Shown: positions 2,057-61,198 of the stretch, piece by piece
Layout: the number at the start of each line of letters is the position of its first letter
How positions within the stretch are numbered: position 1 is the stretch's first letter
Notes under the pieces: generated by a model
The model's input: only the letters and a program-made list of their open reading frames with translations
Told to the model about the DNA's origin: nothing
Database searches by the model: none
Source: Daphnia pulex
Lineage: Eukaryota > Arthropoda > Branchiopoda > Diplostraca > Daphniidae
NCBI RefSeq assembly: GCF_021134715.1
Contig: NC_060024.1
Location: forward strand, 1,736,001-1,800,000
Direction: 5' to 3'
Length of the DNA: 64,000 bases
Translations under genes and position numbers: made by a program

Positions 2057-3205
2057 GCAACAAAAATTCCTCCCCCCCATGTGATTGAAGCTCACCGCAG
2101 TAGCTTTAACTCATATCATAAGCCTCATTTACAAAATATTTAAATTTTTAAAACGTATTTATTTTCCCGGTATATATGAATCTCAACAGAACTAAATAAA
2201 ATTTGGTACACTCTTTAATAAGATGCTGTAGAATATATATCCAAGAGGCCGTAAAAAATATTTAAGGGAAGTCCCGTTCTTAAATAATTAATGAGAAAAA
2301 TCAGGGAAAAACAGCGATCATTTTTTCCTGCTATCCCTAAATATCGGAATATATTTTTTTTATAACCCTTTCACACCCCATCCCAGAAGGCCGAGTTGAA
2401 AATCGAAAAAAAAACATAAAATGGGACACTCTAGTCTCCCTCTAGCTACACCCGTCGTCAAATTTGAAAAAGTCTTTTTTCGTATTCCTTCTCATTGCTA
2501 GATGGCGTAGAACGTTGTTGTGGTCTTTTCATATCCTACAAAAATATGACGAGCCGTTTGGCTCACTACCCCTGGCTGACTTTGAAATACCACGGTGCCA
2601 CCTAGTGAGCGTATGTGTAACTACCTGTATAGGGGTCGCTCCTACACCAGCCACCGTGTAGTGTACTAGATGGCGTGGTGTAGTGTGGTGTAGTGTAGTG
2701 AAACCGTTTTTTTTTATTTTCTGACTCCTAATACAGTGTAGTGTATGGCGTAGTGTAGTGTAGCATATTGTAGTGAAACCGTTTTTTTTAATTTTCTGAC
2801 TCCTGATATAGTGTAGTGTAGTGTATGGTGTAGTGTAGTATAGTATAGTATAGTGAAAACGGGTCTTTCTACAAATTTTTCCTTCCCGCGATATAGTGTA
2901 GTGTAGTGTAGCGTAGTATAGTTACATAGGAACTTCAGCTCTCTGACTAAAAGTATATTTTAATTCGGATCGTATGGGGAATTTACACTTTTAGATTTAT
3001 TTCTTGAAATGGTTATTGGTAACTGAGGACATAGTCCCTAATTTTAAGATAACACTCGATAGAATTCTTCCAGGAAATATCCATCTGGCGAACAAATCTT
3101 TCCAGGGCAAGCGCTCGCTTTCATTCTAACGGACAGATGATTCGGGGAATGACAATGCCTGCATCGTCGTCAACCTGAATCTTTTCTAAATCAATTTTCT
3201 TCCAG
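2057..3205. other. non-coding stretch left of the integrase relic
   Basis: Apart from the pentamer array I see no gene here. The region 2060-2460 is AT-rich with homopolymer runs. The open frame at 2464-2661 has no recognisable motif and partly overlaps the repeat. Confidence 0.55.
2640..2935. repeat. (TAGTG)n-type microsatellite array
   Basis: Imperfect tandem TAGTG/TAGTA pentamers occur in four blocks, separated by a repeated spacer with a T-run followed by a TTTTCTGACTCCT motif. The spacer also repeats, so the larger period of about 90 bp looks like a higher-order unit. A short reverse-complement piece (CTACGCCACGCTATACTACG) reappears at about 3635-3655, on the other side of the tail of the integrase relic. 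Confidence 0.85.
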
Positions 3206-52700: not shown

Positions 52701-52708
52701 GAAAGTAA
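52701..52708 (+). repeat. 8-bp target duplication, left copy
   Basis: GAAAGTAA, matching 60463-60470 exactly, directly outside the GGCAT terminus. Confidence 0.88.
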
Positions 52709-53143
52709 GGCATAGCGACACTAGAACGTATTACCACTAGAACTTTAAGAATCCGACACTAGAACGCGACACTAGAACTACAAATTTTTTAACGCGTCAC
52801 TAGAACGCGGCACTAGAACTTCAAGATTTTAGGGCCGACACTAGAACTTATCAACCCCGACACTAGAACGCGACGCTAGAACGGCGACACTAGAACGGCA
52901 ACAGGGCCGACACTAGAACGGCGACATTAGAACGCGACGCCAGAACGGCGACACTAGAACGCGACACTAGAACGGCGACACTAGAACGGCGACACTAGAA
53001 CGGCAGCCGGGCCGACACTAGAACGGCAGTCGGGCCGACACTAGAACGGCGACACTAGAACGGCGACGCTAGAACGGCAGTAATTTCAGGGCCGACACTA
53101 GAACGGCGATAATATTAACGGCGTCACTAGAAAAACGTCACCC
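52709..53143 (+). repeat. left inverted repeat (435 bp) of minisatellite GACACTAGAACGGC
   Basis: About 25 copies of a 12-16-bp unit, GACACTAGAACGGC with variants (GTCACTAG, GACGCTAG, GACATTAG), are mixed with short spacers such as AGGGCC. It ends AGAAAAACGTCACCC. It is the reverse complement of 59996-60462 apart from a few units and scattered changes. Confidence 0.93.
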
Positions 53144-54110
53144 GTAAGAAAAATAGGGCATGTTAGATAGGGCATGTTATAGAGTACGGGAGTAAAACAA
53201 CGCCCTTAGATTCCAGCAAAACACCTTATTTAAATCTAATTCTAGGTGCATACATATACAAAAGAAACCAAACAACAGTCTAGCAAGTATATAAATGGGA
53301 ATAGAAACTGTTTTTATTAAACCAATTCCAGCCAACTAACTAATACGAATTCTTGGGCAGCTGTCATGACTTAACACCACAATTGAGCAACAATTAGCAG
53401 AGGAGAATTGACACTTTGCCGGCTTCGTGAGAAATCGGAATTGTCCGTCTGCGACTTGGACAGTTGGACGAACTGCCAAGCCGTGAGCTTCAGCACGACA
53501 TTTATCCAGTGAGGAGTGTTGTCGATGGGATTAAGGGCGACCCGAGTCGGCCAAAGTGGCTGGTTCTACTGTGTCGGTCGGACGGCGGCATTGTGCAAGG
53601 CGCAGGATGGAGTCCGTAAATTTGGATTGGCGGAACGGCCGACTTAAAAGGTTACGTAAGGGTTACTTCTGAAAAGGTTTTTCAGGTCACTCAGGTGAAG
53701 CGGGTCGAATCATTGGAGAATAATGTTTCCTCGATCGTCAGACAACAAGTGCCAACTCGTTCGTCGAATGTCCTTTCATAGCATAACGAAAGTATAAATG
53801 GATTGTAGTATACTGTCTTCAAAGCCTTGTACAAAGGCACATGCGTCGCATAAACATCACATAGTTCTTGGAATGTATTCCGAGGATTCCATGAAATATA
53901 ACGGCAAAAAACGAAAATACGTTTCTCTAACGTGATATGCCTAAAAAAAAGAAACCCACTGATGATCAAGCTCAGTACAATCTCATACCGAGTCTGGATG
54001 AAACGTCGACTTGGTCTTACGGCCATCTGTTTTTATTCCAACACTATTCACACACAATGGTTGATTTGCCCCCTGAATAAGTGATCACCTCGACTGCGTC
54101 AAGATGTCAA
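53144..54110. other. element interior, unidentified; two coding-like stretches
   Basis: At about 53426-53612 a plus frame stays open and reads QLDELPSRELQHDIYPVRSV then DPSRPKWLVLLCRSDG. The minus frame 54026-53691 (MAVRPSRRFIQTRYEIVLSL, then FQELCDVYATHVPLYKALKT) is 111 codons with a hydrophobic start. Neither is recognised. They may be further captured gene pieces or remnants of the element's own gene. Confidence 0.35.
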
Positions 54111-54359
54111 CTAGTGATTGAACAATTTTGTGACTGTCATTCTGTCCGAAAAAGCCATCGAACTATTTGAGTGTGTGTTTGGTGGTGGTGTTGGAAAGGA
54201 GAAAAGAATTGTGTGTGTGTGTCGCGCTTACGCCCTACAGCCTAAAGAACGTAAGAAATATGGCAGAAATGGAACTTGCGATCGCAAATTCTATCGCATC
54301 GATCCTGTTACATCGTCGAGCTATCACCCAATGCCTGATATGCAGTTCCTCATGGCTTT

Positions 54360-56662
54360 TCATTAAAAGAAAAATTTATCCAATTGGGTTCCCAGTTGAC
54401 TGTTTCTGCGGAGCGCAGGACTCGTCTAGAGTGACGCCTATCCCTTTGCGCCACCGTCGTCGTCTTTGTGGCCGTCGGATTGGCTATCGCCATGGCCGCT
54501 TTCATCTACCGAGGCCAGCAAAACGACCCCTCAAAAGGTTCGGCTATTTTTCCAATTCTCAATTTTTTGGTTATTAAATTATTATTTTTTTGATGAGATT
54601 GATCTGTTTATAAACCCCAATATCCCCATTGCCATCTTGAAATAGTGTTCGATAGTGAAACTCTTGCCATGGTCTCGTCCTCTGCCGCAGCCTTTACCGT
54701 CAGCAGTCACAAAGTTCTCGATTTGGACAAGGCCACCAAATCCGACGCCGATCCTTCGGCCAAAAGCGCCAACGGCGACGTTTGCAACACTTCCGGCTGC
54801 GTCCTGGCAGGTACAAATTAACTTGTCCCATCTACTTTCCTTGTGAAAATCAAGTAATTTGAATTCTCGATAGCGGCCGAGATCCTGAAAAATATGGACA
54901 AGACGGTGAATCCTTGCGAGGATTTCTACTCGTTCGCTTGCGGCGGATTCGAAACGAGGAACGTGATTCCGGACGACCAGTCGAGCGTGACGACTTTCAG
55001 TTTGATTAGCGACGAAGTGACGGAGCAGCTGCGGTCGCTCATCGAGAGGCCCACCAAAGAAACGGACGCTGCTGAGCCGTTCAAGCTGATCAAGAAAGTA
55101 CGTATTTAAAACCATCTCTTTCTTCTTTGATGTGCCGGCCTGGATGGATAAATAATTCCGTTTTGAATCGCAGCTCTTCCAGTCGTGTTTGAACAATAAG
55201 ACCCGGGCGGAGGAGGTGGGCCTGGCGCCGCTCAAGGAGGTCCTTGACCAGTTTGGCGGCTGGCCGGTCGTCGTTGGCGACAGCTGGGGCGACGACGATT
55301 TACAAGTTCCGTCTGGCCGGCTACTCGATCGACTACTTTGTCGACTTTTCCGTCACGACCGACCTGAAGAACTCGACTTCGCGTATTATTGACGTAAATA
55401 ATTTCGCCCCTATTGCCATCATTTCACCTCGTCAGAAATATTGAATGGTTGATGATTCGCTTATTATTTCGTTGGGACAGTTGGATCAAGCCACTCTGGG
55501 ACTGAGCCGGGAATATCTGATCAAAGGTCTCGGAGACAAGGACGTCAAAGCTTACCTCGATTATCAAGTCGGTTTAGCCAACTTCTGGGAGCGATAAGGA
55601 TAAGGATACCGCAACCAAGCAACAGACGGAAGCGCTGGAATTTGAAATCAAGCATGCCAATGTAATTCTTCTATTTCAAAGCCTCTTTTCTCCCTTTTCT
55701 CCCTCTAAGCTGTGTACGTAGTAAAATAAAATGGCGGGATCATTAATTTTGATTGCTATACCCTTCCCGACCGAAAATAAAAACAGATCAATTTGCCGAG
55801 GGTGGAGCGCCGTGATGCCAACAAACTTTACAATCCCATGACTATTAAAGAATTGAGCCTCAAATTACCCGAAATCCCTTGGCTGGTCTTACATGAACAC
55901 GATCCTGGCCCCGCATCACGTCCTGACGGAAAACGAGCGCGTCGTTGTCGATGTGCCCGACTATTTCCCCAAGCTGGTTGATTTGCTGGCCAAAACTCCT
56001 GAGAGGGTACAACATCCATCATCATCCAGCGTTTTTCACGAGGTTTTTCATTAACAACACAACATTTTGATTTGATTTTCTCAAGGACTTTGGTCAATTA
56101 TTAGATGTGGCGCGTTTCCTCGGCGTCTGTCGGCTACTTGAACGAAGCTGCTAGAAATCTGCAGCTGAAATATTCCGCCGTCTTGACCTGCACAACTGAA
56201 CGAAAACCCCACTGGGAGGAGTGCACTTACCTCGTGTCCGGCAGGTAACCAAATCTTCCTCCTCATCCCAAAAGAAACTCGTTAATTCAAAACTTGTCTT
56301 TTATTTTATTTTTCTTTATATTTGCATATCCCTCTTTGTGTGTTTGTTGTCTGGCACAGAGCCAAAAAATCAAAAGGCAAAATGTAAGATGAAGAAGACA
56401 CGCCCATTTTTATTTGATTCCGCCACATTTTGTCCTTTGCTCTTTTCTCTGTTTGTTTATTTCTTGTTGACTAACCCGGACTAAACTCGTGTCCTCTTTT
56501 TATTTTTCGTTTACAGTTTTGGCAATGCCGTTGGCGCCATGTACGTCCGCGAATATTTTGAAGAGGCGGCGCCAATCGATGAACGAGATGGTCAAAAATA
56601 TCCGCAGCGTTTTCTCGGAAATAATCGACGAACTCGAGTGGATGGACAATGAAACCCGTAAA
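54360..56662 (+). pseudogene. neprilysin-like (M13 metallopeptidase) fragment, N-terminal part
   Basis: Exon-like pieces follow in neprilysin order. A type-II membrane anchor (VVVFVAVGLAIAMAAFIYRG, about 54455-54515) is preceded by a TGA (near 54430). Then come ANGDVCNTSGCVLA (to 54811); EILKNMDKTVNPCEDFYSFA with CGGFETRNVIP (54874-55097); LFQSCLNNKTRAEEVGLAPL (from 55174); LDQATLGLSREYLIKGLGDK (about 55481-55597); RRDANKLYNPMTIKELSLKL (about 55788); VVVDVPDYFPKLVDLLAKTP (about 55943); MWRVSSASVGYLNEA (from 56105); and FGNAVGAMYVREYFEEAA (from 56516). Several frame changes (near 55290, 55885, 56570) and a TAA after NFWER break it. The zinc-binding HExxH part is absent, because the fragment stops at WMDNETRK, where POLRMT sequence begins. 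Confidence 0.85.
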
Positions 56663-58260
56663 CCTTTGGGTGCTGACGGTTTCAACTGGTTAAAACTGCA
56701 TGTGATATATTTGACTGGTACGAAGAAAAGGGAGCCGATTAGTGAACGTCATGCCTATGCCGAGAAAATAATGCCGGAAATTCTCGACTCAGCTGATAAT
56801 CCTTTAACGGTTAGACTTGCCAAGATTTATTATCATTTATTTTTTTTTAACTGTTGAAACTTTAACAACAATACAGGGAAGACAATGGTGGGTCAATTCA
56901 GATGAACCGTGGCAAACCTTAGCAGCTTGTATGGAAGTCGCAAATGCATTAAGATGTCCAGAAGGACCGGAAGCTTATGTTTGTCACTTACCTATCCATC
57001 AAGACGGATCGTGTAATGGATTACAACATTATGCAGCTTTAGGGCGAGATACAGTTGGAGCCGAAAGCGTCAATTTAACACCGACTGATAGACCACAAGA
57101 CGTTTACAGCAACGTGGCCAATCTATAGTACACAATACTTTCGATTGTTTGCTTTTTACATAGAGAATTAATTTTTTGTTTTGTTTTTTAAATATAGGTT
57201 GAAAGGGAACGTTCCAAAGATGCTGCGAATAATGTTGAAATTGCTCAACTTCTTGCTGGACTGATTAATCGAAAGATCATCAAGCAAACAGTAATGACGA
57301 CAGTATACGGTGTCACGCGGTAATACGGTGCCCGATTACAAATTGCCAAACAGCTTAAAGGTACATAATTTTTGTGGTGTACAGTACACGATTCTGATAT
57401 TTTTGGGTAAATTACTAACTTCATTGGCTTCTGCCTAAACAGAACTACCGAATCTAACACCTGAACAAGTTCAAGTTGAATCTGTTTATTTAGCTGACAA
57501 AACATTTCAAAGTTTACAAGGTTTACGTCGGCTAAAGATATTCAAGACTGGTTTACTGAAAGTGCTAAATTGATTTCAACCGTCGCCGGAGAAAGTGTCG
57601 AATGGATCACTCCGATTGGGTTACCAGCTGTGCAGTCGTACAACAATAATCCTTACGAAGCAATGTAAATTGGGTATTTTTTTTTTATCATTCCCAGAAA
57701 TTCTAATAGTTTATGTTGACAGTCGACCGAATGCGATTAAACAACGCAACGCATTCCCACCAAACTTTATTCACTCCTCGGACTCGAGCCACATGATGCT
57801 AACGGCGCTCTATTGCCAACGAAAAGGCATCACTGTTGCGTCCATTCACGATTGTTTCTGGACTCACCCTTGCACTGTGGCAGAAATGAATAAGGTGATA
57901 TTTAAAAAACCTTGAATTCCAGATTTGTTGTTTATTCATCTTTCCCCTGTATTTTTTTTTTTTTAAATTTCAGATCTGCCGACAACAATTCGTCTCTCTC
58001 CACTCTCAGCCTATTTTGGAAGATCTTTCAAAGTTTTTGGTCTCACAGTTTGCCGTCCGAGCGAGGTATTTAATAATAGATTTGCTATATTGCTCACACT
58101 TCAGTTGTTAAATTTATATTTTTTTTAAGTGGTGCCGATGCTGACGATGACACGCCCAAAGGACTTGCAAGACACAGATTGAATCAAATTATAAGTGAAG
58201 TGCCTAGACGCGGTATGTTTGATTTGCGCCTTGTTCTCGACTCGGTCTACTTCTTTTCCT
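56663..58260 (+). pseudogene. mitochondrial RNA polymerase (POLRMT) 3' fragment
   Basis: The C-terminal third of the phage-type mitochondrial RNA polymerase is retained with introns. Visible pieces: PLGADGFNWLKLHVIYLTGT, LPIHQDGSCNGLQHYAALGR, the KQTVMTTVYGVTR region of the O-helix-like motif, SAKLISTVAGESVEWITPIG, FPPNFIHSSDSSHMM, the catalytic box HDCFWTH, ILEDLSKFL, and the true end MFDLRLVLDSVYFFS followed by TAA. Lesions are a TAA directly after VYGVTR (about 57322), a frame change before FTSAKD (about 57520), and an altered splice site after SNVANL. The N-terminal two thirds are absent. The start fuses in frame to the neprilysin piece. Confidence 0.88.
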
Positions 58261-58264
58261 AAAC

Positions 58265-58745
58265 TATAAAGGATTAATCGGACGTGTTCGTTGGACAAAA
58301 AGTAACAACAGTTAGGATGGTTGTAAAATCTGTGCATTCGTATAATTAGTATTGTCTAGTCTTTTCCACAATAAACCCGACGTGGTAGTTCCTAATTTTT
58401 TCATTGTTTATAAGGAGATAATCAACAAGATAAACATCAATCGCCTACACACGATAATCTATTGTTAATTTTCATCAAGGAAGACCCGCCATTTAATGAA
58501 AGACAGACGATGAAAGAGAATCTGGTAGTTCCACGATATGAAACCAACAGGAAATAATTCTCGTCCCAATTCATTTTTTTTAAATACGCATTAATTTTGC
58601 TGAACGAGACTGCACTAGTAACGAAACGATTGCAAATTTTCCGTCGTTTGGAGGAAAAAAGGAAAAAAAATATGAGGAGTTACCGCTATGAATTGAGAAA
58701 AGCATATAGAGAAACTTTGACGAAGAGAAAAATAATATTGCGAGA
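58265..58745. other. element interior between two captured fragments
   Basis: It includes an AATAAA-type signal near 58370 after the POLRMT stop, in keeping with capture of a POLRMT 3' end. No other gene is seen. Confidence 0.5.
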
Positions 58746-58748
58746 CTA

Positions 58749-59750
58749 GTGGATAACACTAGGTCTTCCTTCTTCCTCATTGATGGATTGGTCTTCATTA
58801 ACCCCTAAAAGTGGCTCCGAGTCCGATCCGCGGCGGCACTTGCAAATCGAAGCGTTGATAATGTTATTGTACAAGCCCATGCCCATCACAAGCAAAGCAA
58901 ATCCAATAATCTGTAATAAAAGCGTCACATTAATTAGATTTTTCTTTACAAAGTTTTGATTAGTATTTAATCGGTAAAAAAAATTTATATATGATTCATA
59001 CCTGAGGCCAATAAAATTGTTGCCATTGAAGAGATAGACTTACGCTCCAAATAACAAGCGTTCGTACCGAATCCAGAACCATACGAGTGGTCGCTGACAA
59101 TTCCTTTGTGACGCTGACACCAGCGAAATAAAAAAATGCGATACTTATCACAGTACCTAGAAAGAAATGACAATGAGGGATTGAAGGCTGAAAAACAATA
59201 GAAAATAAATACCTGACATGGCGAGAATAATCATTGGGTTATTACGCATTTGGATGAAACCATCCAGAGCATCTTCAAGGAGCATACGAGGATTAGAGCT
59301 AAATGGAGGTCCCACACGAAGGAAATACATAGGAATAAGCAAGAGGGACAGGGTTACAAAACCAAAATTACCCTCCCAGCCGACGGCCTGCAACAATGGC
59401 ACATTGTGTTTGGTAACAAATTTCTCTTCCCATACCATTTGGCTGGCTGTAACGATTTGCGCCATAACAATCAGCAGATCACCAGTGATAATGCTGTTGA
59501 TTGAGTTGTTGCTGCTACCAGAGCCAAAGATGAAATCGGAAGAGCCCACCACACTCAGACCCATGATGACGGTTAACATTCCAAGCCATTCATGCGCTTT
59601 TAAAAGCCTCCCTAGGAAAGCTGTGGACAAAAGTCCAGTGAAAATAATGATTGCTTCCGGAATCGAGTTTAATGGGCGCCGAAGTATCTCGGATATTTTC
59701 TCAACTATGCTATAAAGCAATTCTACAGAAGACCATTTACTGAGAAACAA
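58749..59750 (-). CDS. SLC35F6 C-terminal fragment, 5'-truncated but frame-intact
   Basis: SLC35F6 is a multi-pass transporter-like protein of the drug/metabolite transporter clan. Three exons: 59750-59214 (AIIIFTGLLSTAFLGRLLKA, GDLLIVMAQIVTASQMVWEE, then KFVTKHNVPLLQAVGWEGNF), about 59157-59003 (IAFFYFAGVSVTKELSATTR, then MVLDSVRTLVIW) and about 58912-58749 (IIGFALLVMGMGLYNNII, acidic tail, then PSVIH and stop). These match the C-terminal half of vertebrate SLC35F6. The N-terminal half is missing: upstream of about 59690 the similarity fades and the element's inverted repeat follows at 59996. No stop or frameshift is visible in what remains. Confidence 0.85.
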
Positions 59751-59754
59751 TTCT

Positions 59755-59995
59755 GCACAATCGAAACTTCTTTTTCATTCTATTTTATTAATCCTGTTAC
59801 TTTGCCCAACAAAAACGATGATGTGTAATGATGTAGGCCTAAATACAATCAAAAGAGTAAAAAAAAAACTGTTGATGTTACTTAATCCACATTCAAGAAA
59901 GATGATTTTTTTTGTTTTTATTTCATCCGATCTTGGATTCTTTTTGTAAATTTCCCTCTATTTATATTAACAACCGATCGCAACATCCTCTTTTA
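59755..59995. other. short gap between SLC35F6 fragment and right inverted repeat
   Basis: AT-rich sequence with no recognisable exon of the missing SLC35F6 5' half. Confidence 0.5.
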
Positions 59996-60462
59996 GGGTG
60001 ACGTTTTTCTAGTGACGCCGTTAATATTATCGCCGTTCTAGTGTCGGCCCTGAAATTACTGCCGTTCTAGCGTCGCCGTTCTAGTGTCGCCGTTCTAGTG
60101 TCGGCCCGACTGCCGTTCTAGTGTCGGCCCGGCTGCCGTTCTAGTGTCGGCCTGGCTGCCGTTCTAGTGTCGGCCCGGCTGCCGTTCTAGTGTCGCCGTT
60201 CTAGTGTCGCGTTCTAGTGTCGCCGTTCTGGCGTCGCGTTCTAATGTCGCCGTTCTAGTGTCGGCCCTGTTGCCGTTCTAGTGTCGCCGTTCTAGCGTCG
60301 CGTTCTAGTGTCGGGGTTGATAAGTTCTAGTGTCGGCCCTAAAATCTTGAAGTTCTAGTGCCGCGTTCTAGTGACGCGTTAAAAAATTTGTAGTTCTAGT
60401 GTCGCGTTCTAGTGTCGGATTCTTAAAGTTCTAGTGGTAATACGTTCTAGTGTCTACATGCC
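59996..60462 (-). repeat. right inverted repeat (467 bp) of the fold-back element
   Basis: Reverse complement of 52709-53143 with about two additional minisatellite units (GGCCTGGCTGCC and GGCCCGGCTGCC spacers). The outer end GTGTCTACATGCC mirrors GGCATAGCGACAC of the left end with three mismatches. Confidence 0.93.
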
Positions 60463-60470
60463 GAAAGTAA
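60463..60470 (+). repeat. 8-bp target duplication, right copy
   Basis: GAAAGTAA, matching 52701-52708. Confidence 0.88.
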
Positions 60471-60795: not shown

Positions 60796-61163
60796 TTGTC
60801 CGGCCGTGGTAAAGGAGGCAAAGTAGCGTTCCAGCAGGGCCGGACTTCAATTCCCCGTCGGTCGTATCCATCGAATGCTGCGCAAGGGCTCGTACGCTGA
60901 ACTCGTCGGTGCCGGCGCGCCCCAGTTTACTCGGCCGCCGTCATGGAGTACTCGGCCGCTGAAGTCCTCGAGTTGGCCGGTAACGCCGCCCGTGACTACA
61001 AGAAACCCCGTATCATCCCTCGTCACATGCAATTATTGGCCATCCGCAACGACGAAGAGTTGAACAAACTTCTCCCGGTGTTACAATTGCCCAGGGTGAT
61101 GTTTTGCCCAACATCCAGGCCGTTCTCTTGCCCAAGAAGACCGACAAACCTGCCAAGGCTTAA
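60796..61163 (+). pseudogene. histone H2A pseudogene
   Basis: It follows the H2A sequence throughout ([79 protein letters not shown], then TAA). Lesions: the start codon is TTG; several N-terminal codons are deleted with a TAG at 60823-60825; the frame changes around GAGAP (near 60920); an extra base falls near LLAI; and a base is missing near KLLPG (about 61077). It keeps a TATA box upstream and a histone stem-loop downstream, so it may still be transcribed without making H2A. Confidence 0.93.
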
Positions 61164-61198
61164 ATTTTTCTTTCGTCCCTCTCGTCTTTTAAACAAAC

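Follow-up and report, generated by a model that had tools for sequence, protein, structure and literature searches.

What is the 7.75-kb block that separates an H2A gene from an H2B gene in Daphnia pulex? We examined it within a 64,000-nucleotide stretch of DNA (contig NC_060024.1, positions 1,736,001 to 1,800,000), which we refer to as the window. The block (52709-60462) is a complete non-autonomous foldback transposon. It begins with a terminal inverted repeat of 435 bp (52709-53143, plus strand), which has an AGCG-type end, GGCATAGCG, and is built of 13-14-bp minisatellite units. It closes with a terminal inverted repeat of 467 bp (59996-60462, minus strand), which has a GTAG-type end, GGCATGTAG when read inward. 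Their complementary arms are 99% and 100%, and beyond the first 9 bases the two repeats align with no mismatches in 426 bases (32 gap columns). The left repeat holds 22 copies of the repeat core and the right repeat holds 23; in the left repeat, 17 of the 21 spacings between cores are 13-14 or 22-23 bp. Directly outside the repeats lie the two copies of the target-site duplication GAAAGTAA (52701-52708 and 60463-60470, with no strand assigned), the left one 28 bp upstream of the start codon of H2B (52673, minus strand). An earlier reading of the sequence alone (the sequence-only reading) had described both the near-identical repeats and the perfect 8-bp duplication, and both descriptions held. 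Long inverted repeats packed with short tandem repeats are what defines a foldback element, whereas Helitrons have neither target duplications nor terminal inverted repeats; the window element has both.

The ends of this element recur across the genome, a point that the sequence-only reading had proposed to check. A search of 133 Mb with a 19-base pattern of the ends yielded 35 exact matches. The same pattern written backwards has 3, even if up to one mismatch is allowed, so a chance origin of the end pattern is excluded. (Four exact matches to the 14 bases of the AGCG end, at C10:8716180, C10:9368934, C3:1750783, and C9:4242690 [L029-L032], were set aside as chance; no repeat array follows the match, and they are missing from the 19-base list.) Two of the 35 exact ends (C8:7160056 and 7162159) belong to tandemly duplicated copies of the L017 flank (L044), and three were left unread (C7:3810729, C8:463510, and C8:11348597). 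Ends of this kind bound 12 elements that we could delimit completely: the one in the window, three near-full copies of it, and eight others. Every one of the 12 pairs an AGCG-type end with a GTAG- or ATAG-type end. Loci whose second end was absent from the fetched DNA were not counted as complete (L012, L013, L014, L015, L021, L022/L023, L026, and L028). For one complete element, L016, an inverted match of only about 72 bp was detected.

Could the block be an ordinary segmental duplication that happens to end in minisatellites, with no transposon involved? Four window-type copies were found in the genome, and those on chromosomes C8, C9, and C10 share the same end motifs as their limits, have different flanks, and are bounded by their own 8-bp duplications (GAAAGTAA, CTCGCGTA, and GTAACATG, respectively). 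The two copies on C10, arranged head to tail with a single base of difference between them, do fit a segmental duplication. But the different flanks and separate duplications refute this explanation, as do the empty sites described below, and we give it next to no weight. The C10 dimer (C10:6611317-6626696) has a 10-bp linker and a single target duplication around both copies, an arrangement that would also be in keeping with a circular or dimeric intermediate. The window and C9 copies occupy different sites and have different duplications; aligned over 6,850 bp, their interiors show 10 mismatches, with a further 8 gap columns, which argues for recent movement. When the elements are drawn so that the AGCG end is on the left, the two C10 interiors run opposite to those of the window and C9 copies, and those of L020 and L024 run opposite to those of L018, L019, L025, and L027. 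Between copies, the interior can face either way with respect to the two distinct ends.

To look at the site before insertion, we used paralogs. The right flank of the window element is similar to 21 other places in the genome, and we aligned three of these: L041 on C3, and L042 and L043 on C10. All three read GAAAGTAACGA across the joint, a single occurrence in each, so that these paralogous H2A-H2B spacers hold GAAAGTAA once, as the sequence-only reading had predicted for an empty site, and they serve as such. L042 and L043 are alike and together amount to little more than one witness; L041 has a length difference of 8 bases, 4 bases to the right of GAAAGTAA. The H2A gene beside the element has TTG in place of ATG, plus an internal stop.

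Most of the interior is host DNA, in at least six segments (given here from left to right, all on the plus strand). The first (53167-53441) is like an unnamed locus at C11:812725-813014 (L037), with 8.1% mismatch in the longest aligned piece (249 columns). The second (53464-53644) is like a teneurin NHL exon at C12:8664785-8664965 (L039; 9.7% mismatch), and the third (53981-54222) is like another unnamed locus, C12:2208632-2208876 (L035; 3.7%). The fourth (54410-56658) is from an M13 (neprilysin-like) peptidase gene, with its introns kept; its parent is C11:431539-433812 (L034; 4.2%), and there are frame changes relative to the open stretches of that parent. The fifth (56660-59650) is a single segment that includes the 3' parts of POLRMT (plus strand) and of the convergent gene SLC35F6 (minus strand); these are adjacent in the parent at C2:540993-543969 (L033; 2.7%), and introns are again retained. 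The sixth (59651-59919) is a C-terminal fragment of INTS2 that is common to L014, C10:7399762-7400040 (L036), and C11:804014-804224 (L038), with 8.9% mismatch; its name is from a Pfam match to the adjoining open reading frame in L014. The identified parents are thus on chromosomes C2, C11, and C12.

Pfam detects M13, RNA polymerase, and SLC35F domains inside the window element. The polymerase is of the single-subunit type and hence is POLRMT; the name SLC35F6 for the SLC35F gene is that of the sequence-only reading. The sequence-only reading had listed these as three gene fragments. The domains are there, but POLRMT and SLC35F6 came as one segment, and the list missed teneurin, INTS2, and two further pieces. 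It had also noted that the order neprilysin-POLRMT-SLC35F6 at a non-repeat locus in related species would count against a transposon. Among 20 matches in this genome, the order was seen only in copies of the element, because the M13 parent is on C11. The parents that it wanted placed are those given above, and its broader claim, a foldback transposon with captured pieces of host genes, is supported. Two other elements, L016 and L017, contain fragments of Argonaute and guanylate cyclase genes. As in Pack-TIRs and Pack-MULEs, host sequence with identified parental loci is found in the window type, L017, and L016, and this was not found for the L018 group.

Could the segments instead be nested insertions of other transposons, with ends of their own, rather than captures of the repair type? 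Nested insertion does occur in this family, as L020 contains a 2.2-kb stretch that is present at many places in the genome, and the unnamed pieces (L035 and L037) could be repeats. However, once the copies of the element are set aside, the genome contains one match to the C2 segment, and for the M13 segment one long match and a 65-bp match on C8; both segments keep introns. At the M13/C2 and C2/INTS2 junctions, the two pieces adjoin directly, sharing 0-1 bp, and there is no duplication. We consider nested insertion to be very improbable.

The segments differ in how far they have diverged. The outermost are the most different from their parents (8-10% mismatch) and the C2 segment is the least, which suggests successive inward capture, with newer pieces placed inside older ones. 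Mismatch also depends on the constraint at the parent, so the layering suggests an order and gives no date. L014 aligns to INTS2 over 953 bp, while the window copy has only the part outside 59650, the position at which the C2 segment ends; on this alignment, L014 is a possible pre-capture relative. Across four coding stretches of the C2 segment, the window and C10 copies differ by 6, 3, and 3 changes at codon positions 1, 2, and 3, so element-to-element changes show no third-position excess, and the C10 copy has a 5-base deletion within the SLC35F stretch. The same stretches differ from the parent by 7, 4, and 11 changes, which is as expected with a constrained parent and alone is no evidence of neutral decay in the element.

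Which transposase moves these elements? We searched for an autonomous copy, as the sequence-only reading had urged, and no intact transposase with family ends was found among the ends that were read. There is a broken MULE transposase relic at L012:6965-7679, 1.7-2.5 kb inside a GTAG-type end, in four collinear pieces. It matches PF10551 loci with E-values down to 7e-19, which are flattering given that the pieces were joined by hand and the frames chosen for resemblance; single pieces give E = 0.003-0.02. Its Pfam score is 24.4 bits, below the cut-off of 27.6, and it lacks the N-terminal part. The second end was not found in 9.4 kb at L012, and the relic may be a nested fragment. A shorter MULE piece in L023 (E = 6e-13) lies 7.7 kb inside an AGCG-type end, far from it. 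When coordinates were compared by eye, none of the 55 PF10551 matches fell inside a complete element. FLYWCH, the finger of Tm1-A, has three matches in the genome (20 candidates scored); none is near a family end, and they did not point to an autonomous copy. The MULE loci L045-L048 and nearer relatives of the relic (L049-L051) have no long inverted repeats within about 2 kb of flank on each side, and when the relic was used in a protein search, none of the 63 candidates reached E = 0.001. We view the relic as supporting mobilization in trans by a Mutator (Phantom/Tm1-like) transposase.

The target duplications bear on the same question. With the C10 pair counted once, the 12 elements represent 11 insertions, of which eight have target duplications (8 bp at seven and 9 bp at one, L019) and three do not (L016, L017, and L018); the lengths fall within the 8-11 bp or so of MULEs. 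Target duplications of 8 bp are usual in hAT, P, and Merlin elements. An origin in one of those superfamilies (Merlin, hAT, or P/Galileo-like), with the relic at L012 an unrelated nested fragment, fits the usual length, and it gains from the relic being at one locus that lacks a second end and from the example of Galileo, a P element with foldback ends (available text of PMC3169594). Against it are the 9-bp duplication, the long repeat-filled ends of two distinct types, which match the MULE Tm1, and the fact that the only transposase remnant recognized near a family end is a MULE. The sequence-only reading had offered hAT, P, Merlin, or a MULE variant; the relic's matches favor the last, and we consider the others unlikely. 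We put the probability at roughly 85% that this is a non-autonomous cut-and-paste Mutator (MULE) DNA transposon of the foldback type, with an architecture close to that of nematode Tm1.

As described in the available text of PMC3169594, Tm1 of root-knot nematodes is a Mutator/Phantom foldback whose ends consist mostly of 14-bp units and differ in their motifs; it makes duplications of 8-10 bp, and most copies are non-autonomous. The Daphnia elements are alike in these respects, with tandem units of about 14 bp and different end motifs in all 12 complete elements. The Meloidogyne hapla unit, CGTTTCAGTATCGC, matches the Daphnia unit, CGTTCTAGTGTCGC, at 11 of 14 positions ungapped (reached by 225 of 100,000 shuffles) and the M. 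incognita unit at 10 of 14 (reached by 888 of 100,000), which we report as resemblance and not as homology. Tm1 has a MULE transposase, for which the candidate trace in Daphnia is the broken relic. There are differences as well. The ends of Tm1 differ in the outermost 7 bp, whereas those in Daphnia differ at positions 6-9, inside a common GG[C/G]AT; and the same portion of that paper describes no captured multi-gene mosaic. The ends of the window element lack the Tm1 motifs A1, A2, and D at the equivalent positions, so the element, although it works in the manner of Tm1, is not assigned to it. Rehavkus, which has a PHD-finger transposase, shares MULE kinship, tandem repeats in inverted ends, and arthropod hosts in the available parts of PMC10218199 and PMC6446971, and it makes 9-bp duplications (8-9 bp in Daphnia), but in Tribolium it has a 164-bp repeat unit. 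For gene capture, the closest case in the available text of PMC8277862 is Ssk-FB4/FB4 of Drosophila melanogaster, a foldback that has captured a host gene and exists in several copies, each with its own duplication, as well as in a tandem duplicate; its transposase is not known. That element carries one gene, is polymorphic in populations, and has 9-10-bp duplications, whereas a single Daphnia reference genome holds three different packs, with captured DNA in mosaics from several loci. The animal 'pack-foldback' proposed earlier does combine both traits here, but it has this precedent. Animal Pack-TIRs, like plant Pack-MULEs, have gene pieces from other loci between inverted repeats, multiplied by transposition; FB4 apart, they are given no minisatellite ends in the same text, which reports no Pack-MULE in a survey of 100 animal reference genomes and names one in animals, a Drosophila family. 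In searches of one open-licence library, the only paper with both 'Daphnia pulex' and 'foldback' concerns nematode genomes, judged by title and abstract, and the available text of a 2026 paper on arthropod MULEs (PMC13359780) does not mention crustacea, Branchiopoda, Phantom, or tandem.

How might such an element be built? A MULE transposase made elsewhere would bind the reiterated 14-bp units and move the element in trans, and recombination between the inverted repeats would flip the interior. Breaks or stalled forks in the interior may be repaired by copying unrelated loci, and because introns are kept, capture would be at the level of DNA. Newer captures would come to lie inside older ones, and the enlarged element would then transpose. 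The captured pieces are most likely passive cargo. We hold it to be an even bet that a Mutator/Phantom-like foldback lineage in Daphnia is a habitual collector of genes: that stretches of 0.2-3 kb are copied from unrelated genes to the middle of the element, that older ones are pushed outwards, that the interior flips between the two distinct ends, and that the product multiplies, leaving in each element a layered record of capture.

That inverted-repeat transposons capture genes is well known from plants. In animals, such capture is thinly documented, as far as the available text of PMC8277862 goes. Here, pieces of Argonaute, guanylate cyclase, teneurin, INTS2, and POLRMT genes have been copied around within an animal genome. 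Because this one genome offers three different packs together with the loci from which they were taken, as well as L014 as a possible pre-capture relative and empty sites among the paralogs, the order and mechanism of capture can be tested. The habitual collector, if true, would be a crustacean counterpart of the Pack-MULEs of plants.

The element at window positions 52709-60462 is real and has transposed. Its inverted repeats, the repeat-unit arrays that make them up, and the flanking duplication GAAAGTAA are all as the sequence-only reading stated, and the main point of that reading, a fold-back transposon with host gene pieces, was correct. An empty site with one copy of the duplicated sequence had also been anticipated between H2A and H2B. 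We used a script to join both flanks of the element with a single GAAAGTAA and aligned the product to 3 of the 21 similar places in the genome (133 Mb in 13 contigs, the window being C8:1736001-1800000). In all three aligned spacers, L041 on contig C3 and L042 and L043 on C10, GAAAGTAACGA occurs once. These empty sites are paralogous, not orthologous, and L042 and L043 are so similar that together they amount to little more than a single witness. The L041 spacer is 8 bases longer to the right of GAAAGTAA: at a distance of 4 bases from the insertion point of the window element, CGAG is followed by an additional GAAACGAG, which is either an old footprint or a locally repeated sequence. The window element inserted 28 bp upstream of the start of an intact H2B ORF. 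In the adjoining H2A (window 60796-61170), TTG replaces ATG and there is an in-frame internal stop, and the H2B of L041 is frameshifted; both belong to decayed histone pairs. Separate GTGTAGTGTA minisatellite arrays at window 2656-2929 are, by eye, dissimilar to the element ends.

The ends are present elsewhere in the genome, as a transposon would require according to the earlier reading. A whole-genome search with a 492-bp end found three further near-full copies (C9:8866856-8874675, C10:6611317-6619001, and C10:6619012-6626696), and a 19-base end pattern has 35 exact matches genome-wide (the backwards control gave 3, even with up to one mismatch allowed). Among the fetched loci we delimited 12 complete elements of 3.0 to 7.8 kb: the window copy, the C9 copy, the two C10 copies, L016, L017, L018, L019, L020, L024, L025, and L027. 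Each of the 12 pairs one AGCG-type end with one GTAG-type end (ATAG in L017). If the C10 pair is counted as a single insertion, because the duplication flanks the pair as a unit, then 8 of 11 insertions have target duplications (the window copy, C9, L019, L020, L024, L025, L027, and the C10 pair). These are 8 bp long, except for 9 bp in L019; L016, L017, and L018 have no flanking duplication.

Between the window and C9 interiors there are 10 mismatches over 6,850 aligned bp and 8 gap columns; between the window and C10 interiors there are 84 mismatches and several larger gaps. Within a copy, the two repeats have identical aligned bases in the window element, where their alignment contains 32 gap columns, and in C9, where it contains no gap; in C10 there are 4 differences in 473. 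The two C10 copies are one base apart over their whole length. They lie head to tail (C10:6611317-6626696; L010 and L011), each of 7685 bp, with a 10-bp linker, ATGAAATGAA, and one 8-bp duplication, GTAACATG, encloses both. The pair seems to be a dimer that inserted as a unit.

We dissected the interior of the window copy by genome search and local alignment. From left to right, the captured segments are window 53167-53441, which comes from around C11:812.7 kb (8.1% mismatch); 53464-53644, from a C12 teneurin exon (9.7%; Pfam TEN_NHL, PDB teneurin-m); 53981-54222, from C12:2.2 Mb (3.7%); 54410-56658, from a C11 gene for an M13 peptidase (4.2%); 56660-59650, from C2:540993-543969 (2.7%); and 59651-59919, the end of INTS2 (8.9% to a C10 locus), a name taken from the Pfam match of the adjoining ORF in L014. 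There is also a weak match to C5 at about 53692-53772 (83%), and no parent was found by these searches for 54223-54409 and shorter gaps. The M13 peptidase, POLRMT, and SLC35F6 fragments reported earlier are present, but the count of three was too low, as teneurin, INTS2, and further pieces are also there. Because POLRMT and its convergent neighbor SLC35F6 occur together in the C2 segment, that segment is one capture. Introns are retained in the captured segments, so copying was at the DNA level. Two C11 places that match the two outermost segments, 804014-804224 (INTS2) and 812725-813014, are 8.5 kb apart.

Mismatch to the parent is highest in the outermost segments and lowest in the C2 segment. 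L014 (on C5, with one end known) aligns with INTS2 over 953 bp, and the window copy keeps only the portion outside position 59650, the end of the C2 segment. Most simply, INTS2 was already in the element when the C2 piece was added. Both partners are known for two junctions, and in each they have 0-1 bp in common. Over four coding stretches of the C2 segment, the window and C10 copies differ by 6, 3, and 3 changes at codon positions 1, 2, and 3, small numbers that give no sign of coding constraint between element copies; changes from the parent number 7, 4, and 11, and the C10 copy has a 5-base deletion in these stretches.

Two other elements carry host gene pieces. In L017 (5.77 kb), a 2.7-kb stretch that contains guanylate cyclase and kinase-homology pieces resembles C2:11404801-11407492 (87%; another copy on C2 is just as similar), and a stretch of 1.6 kb resembles C7:11835618-11837182 (78%). 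In L016 (3.69 kb), 2.3 kb resembles C6:5186217-5188505 (86%) and includes an Argonaute PIWI-domain fragment with its introns (L016:1160-3480, C11:5735159-5737479), which might be a source of small RNAs against Argonaute. A further piece is common to L016, L017, and C6:6798391-6798855 (85-87%). The remaining six elements (L018, L019, L020, L024, L025, and L027) make up a second group. With a 2.2-kb nested repeat in L020 left out, the interior of these elements yielded 61 candidate matches; the 40 that were scored fall on copies from the group itself and on two other places (C12:6958578-6959893 and C5:4588930-4590002), so captured genes are not evident in this group. In L026 (C5:3066400-3076300), the same 383-aa ORF occurs twice, in direct repeats spaced about 5.56 kb from each other.

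We compared orientations with the AGCG-type end of every element at left. The C9 interior is oriented as in the window copy, but those of both C10 copies run the opposite way. Within the second group, L019, L025, and L027 share the orientation of L018, and L020 and L024 are inverted. In L014 the AGCG-type end adjoins INTS2; C10 shares this arrangement and the window copy does not. Hence an exchange between the ends, either of the interior or of a few terminal bases, has taken place more than once, probably by recombination between the inverted repeats.

By eye, no complete element contains any of the 55 places with the MULE transposase domain PF10551. L012 has a GTAG-type end (the 1.4 kb up to this end is common to L013 at 93%) and, 1.7-2.5 kb inside it, a broken MULE transposase (L012:6965-7679). 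Its four pieces are collinear with MULE ORFs of the same genome, with E values of 0.003-0.02 for single pieces. Joined in frames picked for resemblance to those ORFs, they show 39-52% identity to PF10551 places on C1, C3, and C2 (E down to 7e-19) and score 24.4 bits against the Pfam cut-off of 27.6. A shorter MULE piece lies in L023, 7.7 kb inside an AGCG-type end. The element probably belongs to the MULE superfamily. The source of the mobilizing transposase was not found in the loci read (3 of the 35 exact ends lie outside them); a MULE transposase from elsewhere would mobilize the element in trans.

Tm1 of nematodes, which has a Phantom MULE transposase, resembles the Daphnia element in unit length, two distinct ends, and duplication size (PMC3169594). 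The M. hapla Tm1 unit matches the unit of the window element at 11 of 14 positions (reached by 225 of 100,000 shuffles) and the M. incognita unit at 10 of 14 (888 of 100,000), whereas the Tm1 motifs A1, A2, and D do not stand at the corresponding positions of the element's ends. The "pack-foldback" proposed earlier does combine both traits, but it has a precedent: Ssk-FB4 of Drosophila is a foldback with a host gene (PMC8277862). The same paper reports that its survey of animal reference genomes identified no Pack-MULE (PMC8277862). Relative to these precedents, the additions are a layered mosaic drawn from several loci, the presence of three different packs within a single genome, and a crustacean host.
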